64,000 bases of DNA from positions 3,038,001-3,102,000 of the forward strand of contig NZ_CP058348.1 of the NCBI RefSeq assembly GCF_013752535.1, written 5' to 3'. This DNA comes from Bdellovibrio sp. KM01 (GTDB taxonomy: Bacteria; Bdellovibrionota; Bdellovibrionia; Bdellovibrionales; Bdellovibrionaceae). The notes beneath the pieces are model-generated. The model saw only the letters and a list, made by a program, of their open reading frames with translations, was not told the DNA's origin and did no database searches. Below, piece by piece: positions 1,025 to 7,765 of the stretch (position 1 is its first letter; each line of letters starts with the position of its first letter). A program made the position numbers and the translations under genes.

Positions 1025-2515
1025 TTAGGCGCCTCGAAGAATTAAAGATTTTGGATTGGACTGCCTTTTTGGCGAATTGCCAGCCACGACTCTATTTAGG
1101 ACCAACACATTTCCCATCAAAGATTCTGATTGCGACGAAAGTTGATTAGCTGAAGCCGCAGCCTCTTCCGACGCTGCAACATTTTGTTGAGTAATTTGAT
1201 CTAATTGATTCATCGCCTTACCAATTTGTGCGATGCCATTGGCCTGCTCCTCACTGGCTGTAGCAATCTCAACATTGATATCCGCGACTTTTTTTACGGC
1301 ACTTACGATTTCAGCCAAGACCTCGCCACCTTGGTTGGCCTGCTTGCTTCCAATCTCTATCTTTTGCACGCTATCATCAATTAAAGACGCGATATTTTTT
1401 GCCGACTCTGCACTTCGATGTGCCAAGTTGCGCACAGCTTCTGCAACAACTGCAAATCCTTTTCCTTGTTCGCCAGCACGAGCAGCTTCGACCGCGGCAT
1501 TCAGGGCCAAAAGATTCGTTTGAAATGCAATGTCATCAATGACAGAAGTGATTTCCGCGATCTTTTTAGAATCAGATGAGATGCTCTGGATAGATTGAAT
1601 TAAAGTTAGAATTTCTTTTTCGCCCTTAATCGCAGTCTCTCTAGTTGAAGAAGCCAAAGAAGCTGCTTGCTTCGCATTGTCAGTATTCACGCGAACCATA
1701 GCCGTCAACTGCTCCATTGTAGCGACTGTCTCTTCAAGAGACGAAGTCTGCAGCAAAGCGGACTGAGATAGAGACTGGGATGATTGAGCAATCTGCTCTG
1801 CGACGTCTGTCACGTGATTTGTGCCATCCGCGAGATCTGAAGAAACCGCGGCGATAGATTTTGATAGATAAAATGCAAAAAGAGTACTGGTGGTAAGTCC
1901 CGCCAATACTCCAATAGCTATAATAACTACCATCGCCACATCAGTGCGCCCTGTGGTAGCTTGTGCCTCTTTAACATACTGAAGGCCACTGCTTCTTTGA
2001 AACGCCACCAAGTTAGTCATTGCTTCATCGTAGACTTTCGCCAACTCGGGGCAGTCATGAAGAAAGATCTGAACCATTTTAGAATGATCGTCGGGCGAAC
2101 CTGAACGATAATATTGAATAGCTTTTCTTCCGAGAGATTTGAAAGACCCCCATGCGGCATCGACCTTCTCGTAAAGTTGCTTTTCACCGGGTTTGAAATT
2201 TCCGTTGAGGTACTCTTGCTTATGCTTTTCGTAATCGGCAATATTTATCTCGACGTCCTTAATGAATTCATCAGCTTGCTCTTTGCTTAATCCCGATAAC
2301 CCGAGACTGCGCAAATTGATTCGGACACCTCGAAAATTCAAGTACATCTGATCTGCTGATTCGATATTTGGAAGGACACCATCTGTAACTTTCTCATAGC
2401 TATTGGCGACCTCCTTCATTCCATAAAATGTAAAACCACCAACGACGACTGGAATAACAGACATAAACGCGCCCAGAAACAAAAGTCTTGCTTTTAAACT
2501 AAAATTTGATTCCAT
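1025..2515 (-). CDS. Methyl-accepting chemotaxis protein with 4-helix-bundle sensor
   Basis: This 496-residue inner-membrane chemoreceptor passes ligand binding to CheA/CheW. Transmembrane helices are at about 11-33 and 193-216, flanking a helical periplasmic domain of the 4HB_MCP type. The cytoplasmic coiled coil contains the highly conserved hairpin tip ([20 protein letters not shown] and [19 protein letters not shown]), which identifies the MCP signalling domain. The HAMP region between the second helix and the coiled coil is short or degenerate. No C-terminal CheR-binding pentapeptide is present. AAGGAG lies about seven bases before the ATG. The downstream receptor gene begins 45 bp further on. 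The ligand cannot be deduced. Confidence 0.93.
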
Positions 2516-2565: not shown

Positions 2566-3489
2566 TTAGGTTTTAAACTGTTGTATCAGCAGGTCCATCT
2601 GAGAAACCGCCGAATGAAGACTTCCATCTACAAAGAAAATATTTTTTGAATGAGGAAGTTCCTGTGATCTCAATTGCGCAAGACACGGCCCCCCCACTGC
2701 AACGGCCTTGATCTTTTCAAGATCAGTCCAATTTTTTTGAATATTCGTAGAATCAATAGCGGATAAACAGACAATATCTGGTTCAATGTTGACATAAGCA
2801 TGAAGCAAATCTTCTATAGGCAAATTCACGCCAAGATAGTAGACACTCCATCCCTTCAACATCAGATAGGCAGCAAGAACAATCAAACCTCCCTCATGCA
2901 ACTCTCCAGATGGTGTTGCCAACAAAACTTTTGGTTGCCCTGTACCACTTCGGTTAGTTTTAAAGTAGTTCAGCAGACGAGTCCTAAGAAAATTCCAACT
3001 AAAATGCTCCTGAGCAATATTGATCCGCGAATTTTCCCAATCATCACCGACTTGCATAAGAAGTTTTGGGTAAACCATTTCCAGCAAGTCTGTCTCACTC
3101 AGGCGCATACCAAGACGAGAGAGCTGTTGTTCTGCAAAATCCATATCGTATCTATAAAGAGCCTTTAAAACTTGAGCCAGTCCCTCATTCAAAGTTTCCA
3201 ACAAAACAGAAGATGTGGGAAATGATGCTGGCTCTGAGTTGCCACGAACTGTTGCTATGCCATTGAGAACTTGTTCAATGGCATCCACTATTTTAATTCC
3301 ATTTTTATAGAGGCTCGCCACTTCACGTATTCTTTTTACCTCACCAACATCATAAAGCCGATGCCCCCCCTGAGAACGTTGAGGTCTGGGAAAGCCATAA
3401 CGTCTTTCCCAATTGCGAAGAGTCGCCTGAGAAAGCCCCGTGAGTTGATTGACTTGATCGATATCTAAAAGCGCATCGGGAGTTACCAT
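2566..3489 (-). CDS. CarH/LitR-type MerR regulator with cobalamin-binding (photoreceptor) domain
   Basis: This 307-residue regulator has three parts: a MerR winged-helix DNA-binding domain at about 8-75 (WERRYGFPRPQRSQGGHRLY), a four-helix B12-binding cap at about 95-177, and a Rossmann-type B12 domain at about 186-300. The cap has W151, then nine residues, then E161-H162; this W-x9-EH motif marks light-sensing CarH proteins, where the His caps cobalt after photolysis. The lower-ligand motif ExHxxG is present as E196-H198-G201. Family knowledge: CarH binds adenosylcobalamin, represses as a tetramer in the dark and is released by light. The longest frame starts at a GTG at 3498, but AAGG then touches the codon; the ATG at 3489 has AAGG eight bases upstream. 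It follows the 4.4-5.1 kb operon with a 125 bp gap that may hold its own promoter. Confidence 0.88.
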   Translation of the reverse strand: MVTPDALLDIDQVNQLTGLSQATLRNWERRYGFPRPQRSQGGHRLYDVGEVKRIREVASLYKNGIKIVDAIEQVLNGIATVRGNSEPASFPTSSVLLETLNEGLAQVLKALYRYDMDFAEQQLSRLGMRLSETDLLEMVYPKLLMQVGDDWENSRINIAQEHFSWNFLRTRLLNYFKTNRSGTGQPKVLLATPSGELHEGGLIVLAAYLMLKGWSVYYLGVNLPIEDLLHAYVNIEPDIVCLSAIDSTNIQKNWTDLEKIKAVAVGGPCLAQLRSQELPHSKNIFFVDGSLHSAVSQMDLLIQQFKT

Positions 3490-3614
3490 ACTAATCACCT
3501 TATCGGATGGTTTGATTAACTCATGATACCTTTGACGATTTTTTTTTTAATCAAACATTGTGATTATTAGTCGTTTCTAGATGAACTAGTATCAAAACTA
3601 GACGAAAGGCCGAC
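3490..3614 (-). promoter_or_regulatory. Upstream region of the carH-like gene with inverted repeats
   Basis: This AT-rich gap contains a 9 bp inverted repeat (TTTGATTAA at 3511-3519, TTAATCAAA at 3547-3555), an imperfect palindrome at 3509-3530 with GGT..ACC ends, and three CTAG sites at 3577, 3586 and 3598. ATGAAC at 3581-3586 equals the inner half-site of the perfect palindrome at 5151-5178. It also holds a ten-base T run. No promoter with standard 17 bp spacing is clear; TTGATA and TAATAA on the minus strand are 20 bp apart, which is in the long range that MerR proteins tolerate. Autoregulation is an inference. Confidence 0.45.
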
Positions 3615-4385
3615 TCACATTTTATCTGGTTTTAGAAAGGCCTCAAAATCACGAATCATTTTTGCCGCTTGCGCGCCATCAAAGAAGCGGTGATCGAAGG
3701 TAACTCCAAGGTGCATAATTTCCCGAATTTCGATTTTATCTTTCACCACGATGGGTTCTTTGCAGACTTGTCCGATTGAAATCAACAGACCTGCCCGAGT
3801 CAAAGGAACCAAAGGAACTAAAGCTTTCTTAATTCCCAAAGAACCCACATTAGTTACGATCACTGAACCAAAAGGATCTTTCGGCAACCGAGCAAAAGAT
3901 AAATCCAAATTAAGGTCATGAACTAAAAAGCCGAAGACACGCAAAAAGCTTTTCGTGAAAAAATGAGGCAACTTATGAATCAGTCTTAACGCAAAACCCA
4001 AATGAGGATCTTCTCTGCGACGAATTTGCCCAGCATTCTTCGATAATTGTTCTTCGATCTCGGTTACACTCATCCGATCAACATCCCGAAGAGTCGCGAA
4101 AGAAAGATCGTGTCTTCCTTCCTCAGGAATATTCACCATAACAGAAATATTTATGCTCTTGCGATGATATAACCTTCCGAATCGCATCACAAAATTAAGT
4201 TCTTTGTGGTTTTTCATAACCTCACTCAAACCCTTAATCACCAATGAGGTGGGAGAGGATAAGAGTTTGAGATGCGTGACATCTACCTCCAGAAATCCAT
4301 ACACAGAGGGATCTCCGCCACCTCCCCAAAGAGAAAGTGCTACTTTCCTGAAAATCGAGATGTCGTTGACCTTAATAAATTTCAC
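3615..4385 (-). CDS. Stand-alone E2-like (2-oxoacid dehydrogenase / CAT-fold) acyltransferase
   Basis: The product is 256 residues and resembles only the catalytic domain of 2-oxoacid dehydrogenase E2 subunits or chloramphenicol acetyltransferase. The C-terminal HxxxDG active-site motif is present (H232, D236, G237 in DHRFFDG), and a DPFGSVIVTNVGSLG segment matches the E2 core. There is no lipoyl domain, no E1/E3-binding domain and no E1 or E3 gene nearby, so it is unlikely to be part of a classical complex. The acyl donor and acceptor are unknown. TTG at 4388 starts the longest frame, but GGAGG is better spaced for the GTG at 4385. It follows the DUF2805 gene by 14 bp. A paralogue lies at 53299-54189; both share FRK.A...W...GDP.VYG near the N-terminus. 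Confidence 0.8.
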   Translation of the reverse strand: MKFIKVNDISIFRKVALSLWGGGGDPSVYGFLEVDVTHLKLLSSPTSLVIKGLSEVMKNHKELNFVMRFGRLYHRKSINISVMVNIPEEGRHDLSFATLRDVDRMSVTEIEEQLSKNAGQIRRREDPHLGFALRLIHKLPHFFTKSFLRVFGFLVHDLNLDLSFARLPKDPFGSVIVTNVGSLGIKKALVPLVPLTRAGLLISIGQVCKEPIVVKDKIEIREIMHLGVTFDHRFFDGAQAAKMIRDFEAFLKPDKM

Positions 4386-4399
4386 CAAGACCTCCCCGT

Positions 4400-4705
4400 T
4401 TACTTCCAGCCCTTGGTGACTCCATCAATGGATTGTCGTGAACACTTAAAACGAGTAACTTTGAAGCCTCTTGTTTTTTCGTTCTTAAGATGTCCCTGTT
4501 GATATACTCTTCGTCGCCAACGATTAAAAACATCTTTCGCCAAGGCTGACCTCATGAATTGAACAAATTCATTTGGAGAAAGACCGAACTGAGCTTCAAT
4601 CACATCAAAAGTTGTTCGATCTTCCCAACCCATTCTTACAAGTCTGGAGCGATCGTCTTCAGAGAAACCAGAAAATTTTTCTTTGAGTGCTTTTGATATT
4701 CCCAT
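4400..4705 (-). CDS. DUF2805 / TIGR03643-type small protein
   Basis: This 101-residue basic protein matches what I remember of the DUF2805 (TIGR03643) family. The conserved core is at about 28-75, with DRTTFDVIEAQFGLSPNEF followed by an Arg/Trp-rich FNRWRRRVYQQGHLK. The helical first half looks like a small helix-turn-helix and the family function is unknown. As I recall, relatives often lie beside photolyase/cryptochrome genes, which would fit the CarH-like regulator here, but I cannot check this. It is the middle gene of a three-gene run, 11 bp after the DCC gene and 14 bp before the acyltransferase gene. Confidence 0.8.
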   Translation of the reverse strand: MGISKALKEKFSGFSEDDRSRLVRMGWEDRTTFDVIEAQFGLSPNEFVQFMRSALAKDVFNRWRRRVYQQGHLKNEKTRGFKVTRFKCSRQSIDGVTKGWK

Positions 4706-4716
4706 ATCTCAAGCCT

Positions 4717-5139
4717 TTATCTTTTTTGATCAAACTGCACTTCACAGTAAGGACTGTCGGAACATTCTTTACGTGGAAGCAAAGGACGAACTTTTGCAAA
4801 CAAGAAATACCCCGCCTCTAGGGTCTTTTTGACGGGTCCAAAGGAAGCTAAAGGAACAATTTTTTTCAAAATATTTAACTGAGACCAAATCATTATAAAT
4901 GCGTCAACGCCGATATGGATCTGCCCGTTGGTATCTCTAACATGAAGACTTTGGTGGATCTTATGGGGATCTAAGCCTTCCGCCGTGGCATCAAATCCTG
5001 GGGAGGTGATGTCGACAAACGAGATATTGCTAGCCCCGTCCATCTTTTTATAGTGCTCAATTTCCCGTGAACACAATTGACAGAGACCATCGTAATAGAC
5101 CGTGATTCCAGAATGAGACATATCTTTTGTCTTTTGCAT
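4717..5139 (-). CDS. DCC-family thiol-disulfide oxidoreductase-like protein (DUF393)
   Basis: This 140-residue cytoplasmic protein carries the defining DxxCxxC motif at the N-terminus: D17-G-L-C20-Q-L-C23 in VYYDGLCQLC. The later KIVPLASFGPVKKTLEAGYF segment also fits the family. DCC proteins have a thioredoxin-like fold and are assumed to do thiol-disulfide chemistry, but substrates are unknown. GGGAG six bases before the ATG supports this start. It is the first gene of the minus-strand operon and its promoter overlaps the palindrome at 5151-5178. Confidence 0.85.
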   Translation of the reverse strand: MQKTKDMSHSGITVYYDGLCQLCSREIEHYKKMDGASNISFVDITSPGFDATAEGLDPHKIHQSLHVRDTNGQIHIGVDAFIMIWSQLNILKKIVPLASFGPVKKTLEAGYFLFAKVRPLLPRKECSDSPYCEVQFDQKR

Positions 5140-5150
5140 CTTGATCTCCC

Positions 5151-5178
5151 ATTTGGTTCATAGTAGTATGAACCAAAT
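5151..5178. promoter_or_regulatory. Perfect 28-bp palindromic operator over a sigma-70-type promoter
   Basis: Arms ATTTGGTTCATA (5151-5162) and TATGAACCAAAT (5167-5178) are exact reverse complements around a GTAG centre. On the minus strand a strong promoter can be read: TTGACA at 5188-5183, 17 bp spacer, TACTAT at 5165-5160. The right arm fills most of the spacer and the -10 lies across the centre, so a bound dimer or tetramer would block polymerase. It is 12 bp from the DCC gene start and 43 bp from the divergent kinase gene. The CarH-like protein is the obvious candidate binder; this is an inference. Confidence 0.8.
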
Positions 5179-5221
5179 TGAATGTCAATGCTTACTAGCC
5201 TCAACCTGACGGGAGCTTACA

Positions 5222-6517
5222 ATGGGATCCATCTTTAGCAGCCGTATTAAACGGACGCTTGAGCTTACCAAAATGGCAACGAAGATTGGCTTTAAAGAAC
5301 TCACGTCAGGTGACATTCAATCCAGAATAGAACAGGCCAAGATTCTTACCGAAAGCCTTGGGAATCTACGTGGAGCCGCGATGAAGGCGGGGCAGCTTTT
5401 AAGCCTCGACCTTGATGACTATTTTCCACCGGAAGCGATCCAAATTCTGTCGCAACTGCAACATCAAGTGTGGGAAAGCCCCGAACTCGACTTAGCGCAA
5501 ACACTCAAAGCAGAACTCACAGAAGCGCAACTTTTGGAGCTGCGTGAAATTCAGTACAAACCCTTTGCAGCAGCCAGCATGGGGCAGGTTTATAAAGCGA
5601 AAGTTGCAAACAATCCGATCGTTATCAAAGCTCAATATCCTTATTTAGAACAATCCATCGAAAACGACATCAGAACTTTAAAAAAAATAATTTCTGCTCT
5701 TTGCTTAATGACAGGCAGAAATATGAATCTCGATTATTTGTTTGCTGAAATCGAAGAGGTGCTGCTTCAAGAAGTAAACTACCTCAATGAAGCCCGAGCA
5801 CTTGCCAATTTCAATAAACTCTTCGCATCTCATGATTGGAAGTACGCCGAAGTAAATGCCCCGACACCACTGACTCATCTCAGTACTAAAAAAATTCTAT
5901 GTCTTAGTTACGAGTCAGGCCTCACGCTAAAAGAATGGATTGATACGGCTCCCCCCAAGGAAAAACGTGAGCTTATCGCCAAATCGATGCTCGAACTTTA
6001 TATCATGGAATTCTTTGTATGGGGTTTTGTGCAAACCGATCCTAATCCAGGAAACTTTCTAATCCGCGAAAATCCAAAACTTGAAATTGTTGCACTGGAT
6101 TTCGGAGCCTCTAAGGAATATCCACCTGAATTTAGAAAAAGCTATATTGAACTTCTGAAGTCGATTCAAAATTCGTCGGCAGAGACGATCGTTCAAAAGG
6201 CCATTGATTTTGAATTATTGGATCCTCGAGAAACACAAGATGCAAAACTTGTGTTTGTTGAACTGATGAAGCTTGGCATGAGTCCCTTTTTTCACAACCA
6301 AAAAGGTGGCAAATTTAGTTTTAAAGATGATGACTTCTTAAAAAACAACTCTCGGCTTTCGCGACAACTGATGCAAAGTCTCAAATTTTCCCCACCTCCT
6401 CATAAATTAATATTCTTGCACAGAAAGCTAGGGGGAATATTTGCTGCTTTAAGAAAGCTCGAAGTCGAGCTGGATCTGCATGAATACTGGGAACAAATCA
6501 TAATGAGGCGCGTATGA
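5222..6517 (+). CDS. ABC1/UbiB (AarF/COQ8)-family atypical kinase/ATPase
   Basis: This 431-residue protein has the marks of the UbiB/COQ8 family: the KxGQ motif (K55-A-G-Q58), an Ala-rich nucleotide loop in place of a glycine loop (AAASMGQVYKA, 116-126), the ATP-binding lysine in VIK (K136), a QTDPNPGNF catalytic loop (D273, N278) and the metal-binding DFG (D293). COQ8 proteins are ATPases that help lipid or quinone metabolism. No membrane helix is evident in this copy. GGGAG lies shortly before the ATG. It is transcribed divergently from the DCC/DUF2805/acyltransferase operon across the palindrome, which suggests shared control. No ubiquinone genes are near, so a role in another isoprenoid or lipid pathway is possible. 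Confidence 0.85.
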   Translation: MGSIFSSRIKRTLELTKMATKIGFKELTSGDIQSRIEQAKILTESLGNLRGAAMKAGQLLSLDLDDYFPPEAIQILSQLQHQVWESPELDLAQTLKAELTEAQLLELREIQYKPFAAASMGQVYKAKVANNPIVIKAQYPYLEQSIENDIRTLKKIISALCLMTGRNMNLDYLFAEIEEVLLQEVNYLNEARALANFNKLFASHDWKYAEVNAPTPLTHLSTKKILCLSYESGLTLKEWIDTAPPKEKRELIAKSMLELYIMEFFVWGFVQTDPNPGNFLIRENPKLEIVALDFGASKEYPPEFRKSYIELLKSIQNSSAETIVQKAIDFELLDPRETQDAKLVFVELMKLGMSPFFHNQKGGKFSFKDDDFLKNNSRLSRQLMQSLKFSPPPHKLIFLHRKLGGIFAALRKLEVELDLHEYWEQIIMRRV

Positions 6518-6673
6518 ATGTCATTTTATGGTGGCACCTTGATGACTGATCGAGTTCGATATAGACTACCATTTGGGTATTTTGGTTGGTTGATCGCTAA
6601 CTACTTTGTTAAAAAAGAAATTACGCAGATTTTCGAATACCGCCGGGAATACGTCTCTAAGTTTAATGTTTGA
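6518..6673 (+). pseudogene. C-terminal remnant of an SRPBCC ligand-binding protein
   Basis: A 51-codon frame begins one base after the kinase stop codon. Its product (GGTLMTDRVRYRLPFG, then ITQIFEYRREYVSKF) matches the last third of SRPBCC 'ligand-binding' proteins of about 150 residues as I remember them. An in-frame TGA directly precedes the first ATG and no N-terminal part exists upstream, where the intact kinase gene ends. The simplest reading is a deletion that removed the first two thirds. It could still be translated by coupling to the kinase stop, but a functional fold is unlikely. Confidence 0.65.
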
Positions 6674-6718: not shown

Positions 6719-7765
6719 ATGAAAGTATCATCGGTCATTTTTTCGAGTGTTTTGATTTTTTGTTTTAATGCAAAGGCAAGCTCATCTTCCACCGACAAGG
6801 AACTATCGAAAACTGCAAAAGCCCTTTTTGGCATCATTCCTGCCAAAAAAGCAGCACCAGATAAGATTTCGGGCGAGCAAATTGAGCTCGGCAGAAAAAT
6901 CTTTTTTGACTATCGCCTGTCTAAAGATGGCAGCACGTCTTGTGTGCGCTGTCACCAGCCGCAGTACTACAGCACAGACCGACTTGCTCAATCTGCCGGC
7001 TTTAATAACAACAAAGGAGCACGCAACGCTCAGTCTATATTAAATCTCAAGTATCAGGAAATTGTTCATTGGCGCAATGATCGCACGAGCATAGAAGATC
7101 AAGCTTTGCGTTCTTTCACCACTCCCTTGAGCTTCGGCAATTCCTCTACCGCTGAGGCTTTAAAAAGATTTGAACTGGCTGGCTACTTACCTCTTTTTAA
7201 AAAAGCGTTTCCTAATTCAGAAAATCCCCTGACCCTCGAAAATGCAGCTGTGGCGCTAGGAAGTTATCAAAGGTCACTGACCACAAGAGCCCCCTTTGAT
7301 CAATTTTTGGAAGGCGATATTAAGGCCATCTCGACACAAGCTCGAAAAGGTTTGAAAGAATTTATCACTGTGGGTTGCGCCTCTTGCCACAATGGCACAG
7401 CTGTTGGAGGCCGAAGTATGCAAAAGTTTGGTGTTTACCAAGACTATTGGAACCTCACCAAGTCTAAGGATCCCGACAAGGGACGCCAAGATGTGAGCAA
7501 GAAAGATGAAGATCTTTATGTTTTCAAAGTACCTTCGCTTCGCAATATCACTGAATCAGCGCCCTACTTCCACGATGCTTCTGCAAAAGACCTAGAGACC
7601 GCGATTCGCTGGATGGGAAAGTTGCAACTGAACAAAGATCTTACTGATGATCAGGTAAGCTCGATAAAAGCATTCTTGGAAAGTCTTAAGGGAGAACTTC
7701 CAAAAAACTTCCGCGAAGCTCCGACTTTGTCTTCAGAGCCCCATGCGGGACAGGAGGTCCCCTAG
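6719..7765 (+). CDS. Periplasmic di-haem cytochrome c peroxidase family protein
   Basis: The 348-residue product has a signal peptide (about 1-20) and two CxxCH haem c sites: C75-V-R-C78-H79 and C220-A-S-C223-H224. This layout and length are those of bacterial di-haem peroxidases (CcpA/MauG group), which reduce hydrogen peroxide with electrons from small cytochromes, or act as quinone or cofactor oxidases in MauG-like members. AAAGG is seven bases before the ATG. It follows the SRPBCC remnant by 45 bp on the same strand, so it could be read through from the light-cluster arm. Peroxide detoxification in the periplasm is the likely role. Confidence 0.9.
   Translation: MKVSSVIFSSVLIFCFNAKASSSSTDKELSKTAKALFGIIPAKKAAPDKISGEQIELGRKIFFDYRLSKDGSTSCVRCHQPQYYSTDRLAQSAGFNNNKGARNAQSILNLKYQEIVHWRNDRTSIEDQALRSFTTPLSFGNSSTAEALKRFELAGYLPLFKKAFPNSENPLTLENAAVALGSYQRSLTTRAPFDQFLEGDIKAISTQARKGLKEFITVGCASCHNGTAVGGRSMQKFGVYQDYWNLTKSKDPDKGRQDVSKKDEDLYVFKVPSLRNITESAPYFHDASAKDLETAIRWMGKLQLNKDLTDDQVSSIKAFLESLKGELPKNFREAPTLSSEPHAGQEVP

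Follow-up and report, generated by a model that had tools for sequence, protein, structure and literature searches.

A CarH-like B12 regulator with chemoreceptor genes forms an inserted cassette beside a putative stress gene block in Bdellovibrio sp. KM01

The stretch of DNA analyzed here (the window) comprises 64,000 nucleotides of Bdellovibrio sp. KM01 (G000:C1:3038001-3102000; the genome is a single contig of 3.96 Mb). It includes a gene for a MerR-type regulator with a B12-binding region (hereafter MerR), which is followed by two chemoreceptor genes (MCP1 and MCP2) and preceded by a block of DCC, DUF2805, acyltransferase, and ABC1 kinase genes. The explanation that we favor, with moderate confidence, is that two independently evolved modules meet at this site: a CarH-type B12 light sensor controls its own chemoreceptor operon, and a GbsR/MarR-like protein controls the stress block. 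A reading made from the DNA letters only (the sequence-only reading) had described one cluster around a CarH-like photoreceptor. A comparison of gene neighborhoods in relatives did not bear this out, as MerR and the block were found apart and the cassette proved to be an insertion. The genes named around MerR are present; however, its conserved partners MCP1 and MCP2, located downstream, had been left out.

Insertion of the MerR-MCP cassette

Orthologs of MerR were identified in four other Bdellovibrio genomes (G003, G019, G020, and G025; 78% and ~62% identity), and none of them adjoins the DUF2805 block. MerR and the block are ~24 kb apart in G003, and MerR and the DUF2805 gene are on separate contigs in G025. 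An MCP1 ortholog (71-77% identity) was found directly downstream of MerR in all four genomes, and G025 also carries MCP2, third in the row after MerR and MCP1. In the window genome MerR and MCP1 are on the same strand with a gap of 50 bp. The outer neighbors of the MerR-MCP genes vary among G000 (the window genome), G003, G019, G020, and G025; since G019 and G020 share their flanks, four different contexts are represented. The conserved order gains weight from the small number of MCP genes, only 26 in 3.96 Mb. The sister genome G016 (~94-96% identical) possesses a near-identical block without the MerR-MCP cassette. When the flanks were compared with G016 (blastn), the alignment stopped at genome position 3037127 and resumed at 3041601 (window 3601), skipping 4.47 kb (MCP2-MCP1-MerR) where G016 has ~21 bp; the cassette therefore sits exactly between the GbsR/MarR-like gene and the acyltransferase gene. 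Judging from these alignments, MerR and the two chemoreceptor genes are an operon-like cassette inserted later beside the block, and their adjacency to it is particular to this lineage.

It could be argued that the position of MerR beside an MCP gene is a case of hitch-hiking with no regulatory meaning, given that chemoreceptor genes are numerous (26 in the 3.96 Mb genome) and the five MerR orthologs represent one lineage. We consider this unlikely: the MerR-MCP order survives relocation in the four different contexts, and other CarH-like lineages adjoin CheA/CheW/CheBR genes (see below).

Two promoters with distinct palindromes

The promoter of the DCC gene (TTGACA-N17-TACTAT) has the palindrome GTTCATAcTAcTATGAAC over its -10, an arrangement conserved in G003, G006, G016, G017, and G024. 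In G000, G003, G006, G016, and G017 this palindrome is also located immediately upstream of the GbsR-like gene, and in relatives it further precedes SDR, DUF3833, and a photolyase-related DPRP gene. Exactly two sites per genome were detected in G000, G003, G006, and G016, both within the block, while a reversed control pattern gave none. A candidate operator is thus shared by the regulator and its putative targets and kept across species, as expected of a GbsR/MarR-like regulon. The GbsR/MarR-like label itself is a weak one, based on weak domain and structure matches (Table 1). A further GTTCATACTACCATGAAC site is present in G017 (L181:1501), between genes for a predicted membrane protein and a predicted exported protein, and may widen the GbsR-like regulon there.

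The promoter region of MerR carries a different inverted repeat, TTGATTAA-N27-TTAATCAA, which occurs once per genome in G000, G003, G019, and G020 (control pattern, 0). Nothing similar to it was found at the block promoters (DCC/ABC1 and ABC1/MauG). Most simply, the GbsR-like protein would regulate both its own gene and the block, with the action of MerR confined to its own operon; we infer the assignment of each palindrome to its protein. The sequence CCGATAAG beside the MerR start was considered as a flagellar-sigma promoter and dropped; part of it resembles the ribosome-binding site, and a convincing -35 element was not seen.

In the proposed mechanism, module A (MerR-MCP1-MCP2, genome ~3037171-3041554) is a transposed, operon-like cassette. 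MerR, as a CarH-family regulator that would bind adenosylcobalamin (AdoCbl), probably keeps its own operon repressed in darkness via TTGATTAA-N27-TTAATCAA. Light would break the Co-C bond (or AdoCbl would be lost), MerR would be released, and MCP1 and MCP2 would rise, so that exposure would change the cues that guide the predator as it swims. Module B (DCC-DUF2805-acyltransferase and the divergent ABC1 kinase) would be a membrane/redox stress block, repressed by the GbsR/MarR-like protein on GTTCATAcTAcTATGAAC over the -10. Dark repression and light release by Co-C cleavage have been described for CarH (PMC8156234, PMC9304148), and AdoCbl binding, repression, light release, and the change in taxis are proposed here by analogy with it.

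From the sequence, the DCC/DUF2805/acyltransferase/ABC1 block had been proposed to be under direct control of the CarH-like protein and to provide a light-induced response based on lipid, quinone, or thiol chemistry (4400-6517). MerR does adjoin the block in this one genome, and families of the block are found beside photolyases elsewhere. However, the two are separate in relatives, the MerR cassette is an insertion, and the block has the candidate operator of another regulator and no MerR-type repeat at its promoters. Since the block is also present without an adjacent MerR in five genomes (G003, G006, G016, G017, and G024), direct control of this kind is unsupported and appears very improbable.

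The interval between MerR and the acyltransferase gene, the last in the row headed by DCC, showed no terminator-like site. Because of this, read-through from the stress promoter into the chemoreceptor cassette is possible in this genome, which counts against a strict separation of the two modules. Taken further, the cassette might have been captured after its insertion by the stress regulon, with read-through from the DCC promoter making the receptors answer to the GbsR-like repressor. The common strand is consistent with such a capture; however, MerR retains its own conserved promoter region, and we regard the capture as improbable.

MerR as a member of the CarH family

MerR is composed of MerR_1, B12-binding_2, and B12-binding domains (Pfam), with W-x9-EH at residues 151-162 and ExHxxG at residues 196-201. 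These positions and domains agree with the sequence-only reading, whose CarH-like identification is upheld by domains, signature, fold, and the presence of a PduO-type adenosyltransferase gene in the genome. An intact W-x9-EH, the feature that separates CarH from CarA (PMC9304148), is invariant across all five MerR orthologs. A phmmer comparison of MerR with CarH of Thermus thermophilus (TtCarH) gave 1.7e-31. In the AlphaFold2 (AF2) model (pLDDT, the predicted local distance difference test score, of 92, superseding an earlier weak model built from five sequences with pLDDT 67), every top Foldseek match was TtCarH, with 2.6-2.9 A for the B12 domain. The signature GxxW, EH, GxxH, GxxxP, which was defined as a predictor of light-responsive B12 domains (PMC11796333), is complete in MerR and invariant in the five orthologs. 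All six genomes checked, the window genome among them, encode a PduO-type adenosyltransferase; the CobA type is absent. The CarH equivalog was by far the best NCBIfam match of MerR, with 149 bits vs. a cut-off of 400, which reads as divergence from the curated CarH set. By sequence and fold, the CarH-like nature of MerR is real, light sensing by MerR is likely but not certain, and its AdoCbl binding and light response are inferred.

Several features weigh against a light-sensing CarH that controls its own operon. His132 of TtCarH, which follows the Trp and is a light-state ligand frequent among CarH proteins yet not found in all, is replaced by Glu in all five MerR orthologs, and the Arg176/Asp201 dimer pair of TtCarH by Leu/Asn in MerR. 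The B12 motif deviates slightly (ExHxxG-x41-SAI-x20-GG vs. the expected D/ExHx2G-x41-SxT/V-x22-27-GG). Direct repeats of the 11-bp TnnACA type, arranged in tandem in known CarH operators, were found in none of the five MerR promoters, where a palindrome is seen instead, and MerR of G025 lacks the TTGATTAA-N27-TTAATCAA palindrome; CarH operators are known to vary (PMC9304148). It has been shown that the H132A substitution blunts the light response of TtCarH, with minimal light-induced change in crystals (PMC10442372). CtMerR, which has Arg at the His132 position, nevertheless changes from tetramer to monomer in the light (PMC11796333), and because it responds without this residue we do not treat His132 as defining.

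MerR might instead sense B12 (AdoCbl) status, not light, and switch the chemoreceptors according to cofactor supply when prey is entered or left. The missing His132 and dimer salt bridge and the behavior of H132A TtCarH are consistent with such a role. On the other side, the light signature is complete, CtMerR monomerizes without His132, and AdoCbl is photolabile, from which a sensor of such build should be light-sensitive regardless. We consider a pure cofactor sensor somewhat unlikely.

CarH-like loci and chemotaxis genes across the phylum

In a tree built from TtCarH and 48 MerR-B12 proteins of the phylum, a CarH-like clade is split from a Trp-less LitR-like clade (support 100/99). Chemotaxis genes were found near eight of the 12 CarH-like loci; MCP, CheA, or CheW genes were found near none of the 34 LitR-like loci. 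The difference (Fisher, 1.9e-6 by locus and 3.3e-3 with lineages collapsed) comes from a post hoc test made once the pattern had been noticed, with flanks of up to ~9 kb, some of them shorter, and with CheA and CheW models seeded from these same loci. The eight loci are the five MerR-MCP operons together with G305, where a cluster of CheA-Hpt, CheW, MCP, and CheR-CheB is divergent from the regulator, and G048 and G225, where CheA operons are divergent from the CarH-like gene. The proteins of G305 and G225 retain W-x9-EH and lack one or two of the remaining elements of the light signature. Against a general pairing, G028 and G038 encode CarH-like proteins with the motif and have no close chemotaxis gene (only a distant CheX/response-regulator gene in G028). 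By eye, flagellar-sigma-like promoters (TTAAGTTT / TTAAGTAT, 11 bases, GCCGA) were seen before CheA operons divergent from CarH-like genes (L057:9960-10010 and L110:9830-9870).

We tentatively suggest, at somewhat less than even probability, that chemotaxis in Bdellovibrionota has come under the control of CarH-type B12 light sensors, which would govern the expression of chemoreceptors or CheA clusters so that light would set the cues followed by the predatory swimmer. If true, light would enter motility via transcription, not via a photoreceptor signaling directly to CheA. A literature search on CarH with chemotaxis returned only incidental mentions in a review, and no reports of light sensing by predatory Bdellovibrio were found in the literature searched.

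The stress block and the features of the window

The coordinates of the features are given in Table 1. The acyltransferase, DUF2805, DCC, and UbiB-like/ABC1 kinase genes are as named in the sequence-only reading (Pfam agrees), and the SRPBCC remnant (~6514-6673) noted there is real: in G016 an intact 450-aa TIGR01777-like epimerase/SRPBCC gene is found at the same place, of which ~1.2 kb has been lost in the window genome. A small membrane-protein gene between the acyltransferase and DUF2805 genes has also been lost relative to G016, where the acyltransferase ortholog is 96% identical. A MauG-type di-heme peroxidase gene follows the ABC1 kinase here and also in the G003, G006, and G016 blocks, and may belong to the stress block.

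As had been noted, no photolyase gene is adjacent to MerR, the two photolyase-family genes of the genome being located at 1.72 and 3.64 Mb. No carotenoid gene is adjacent either, and MerR thus lacks both kinds of neighbor. One of the photolyase genes (G000:C1 1719693-1723887; L084:6694-10888) lies between paralogs of the ABC1 kinase and of the lost TIGR01777/SRPBCC gene, which links these families to light damage. DUF2805 genes are found beside or near DPRP-type photolyase genes in G061 (L080:9088-11377), G025 (L070), and G056 (L082). Across the family, seven of 10 genomes with DPRP have DUF2805 (Fisher p 0.004). The stress block may have a link to light, its families adjoining photolyases elsewhere.

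Table 1. Features of the MerR-MCP cassette and the adjoining block (window positions unless marked as genome).
Feature	Position	Strand	Basis and remarks
MerR, CarH-like regulator, 307 aa	2566..3489	-	Pfam, phmmer, signature, AF2/Foldseek; possible alternative GTG start at 3498
MCP1, chemoreceptor (4HB/TarH sensor + MCPsignal)	1025..2515	-	Pfam; directly downstream of MerR
MCP2, chemoreceptor (Cache_3-Cache_2 + MCPsignal), 617 aa	1..1024, extends past window to genome 3037171	-	Pfam
Inverted repeat TTGATTAA-N27-TTAATCAA, candidate MerR operator	3512..3554	.	Spans MerR promoter region; conserved in G003, G019, G020
Window share of inserted segment	1..3600 (genome 3037128-3041600, ~4.47 kb)	.	blastn of flanks and junction sequences vs. 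G016
Lipoyl-less 2-oxoacid dehydrogenase E2-type acyltransferase	3615..4388	-	Pfam 2-oxoacid_dh 2.7e-22; DHRFFDG motif retained
DUF2805 / TIGR03643 protein	4400..4705	-	Pfam 1.3e-25; NCBIfam above cut-off
DCC1-like thiol-disulfide oxidoreductase (CxxC)	4717..5139	-	Pfam 2.9e-24
Palindrome GTTCATAGTAGTATGAAC, candidate GbsR/MarR-like operator	5156..5173	.	The only other G000 site precedes the regulator gene
Sigma-70 type promoter TTGACA-N17-TACTAT of DCC row	5160..5188	-	Palindrome overlaps -10
ABC1/UbiB-type atypical kinase, divergent from DCC	5222..6517	+	Pfam 5.9e-51
Relic of TIGR01777-like epimerase/SRPBCC gene	6514..6673	+	Start codon joined to 3' end by ~1.2 kb deletion; intact in G016
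GbsR/MarR-like regulator	genome 3036525-3037097, just beyond window		HTH_11 4e-6; MJ223 structure 2e-5
MauG-type di-heme peroxidase	6719-7765		After ABC1 kinase

Comparison with known systems

The noteworthy point is the association between CarH-type regulators and chemotaxis genes. The targets of characterized CarH proteins lie in photoprotection, chiefly carotenoids, and a chemoreceptor-paired branch would represent a new kind of target; it would also give predatory Bdellovibrio a testable green-light response. The corrected boundaries show how a transposed cassette can mimic a regulated cluster, and a new candidate operator-regulator pair can be named for the poorly understood DUF2805/DCC/ABC1 stress block.

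The best match in sequence and fold is CarH (class I LitR) of T. thermophilus (PDB 5c8d-5c8f, 3whp), which shares with MerR the MerR DNA-binding domain, four-helix bundle, Rossmann B12 domain, W-x9-EH, and ExHxxG. MerR differs from it in the Glu at His132 and in lacking the Arg176-Asp201 pair and a TnnACA direct-repeat operator; the locus differs in having no carotenoid or photolyase gene nearby and chemoreceptor genes downstream. CtMerR of Chloracidobacterium thermophilum (PDB 8jbs/8jbt; PMC11796333) is likewise a MerR-B12 protein with the light signature and no His at 132, although the identity in the fold match is 22%. The Trp-less CarA/LitR-like proteins (CarA of Myxococcus, and a paralog at 1.04 Mb of the window genome) share the fold and the B12-binding region with MerR but have no W-x9-EH. 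The locus of this paralog (G000:C1 ~1038800-1046400; L066:7798-15367), with two lipocalin-like genes, an FAD amine oxidase, and two cyclopropane-synthase-type methyltransferases, is a LitR-like island of the classical light/photo-oxidative type in the same genome. A photolyase-associated stress island is known from the LitR regulon of Pseudomonas, which includes PhrB, UfaM, and CryB (PMC9758184). Module B resembles such islands in that its families (DUF2805, ABC1, and TIGR01777) adjoin photolyases in relatives or elsewhere in the window genome; however, it has a GbsR/MarR-like regulator and no photolyase.

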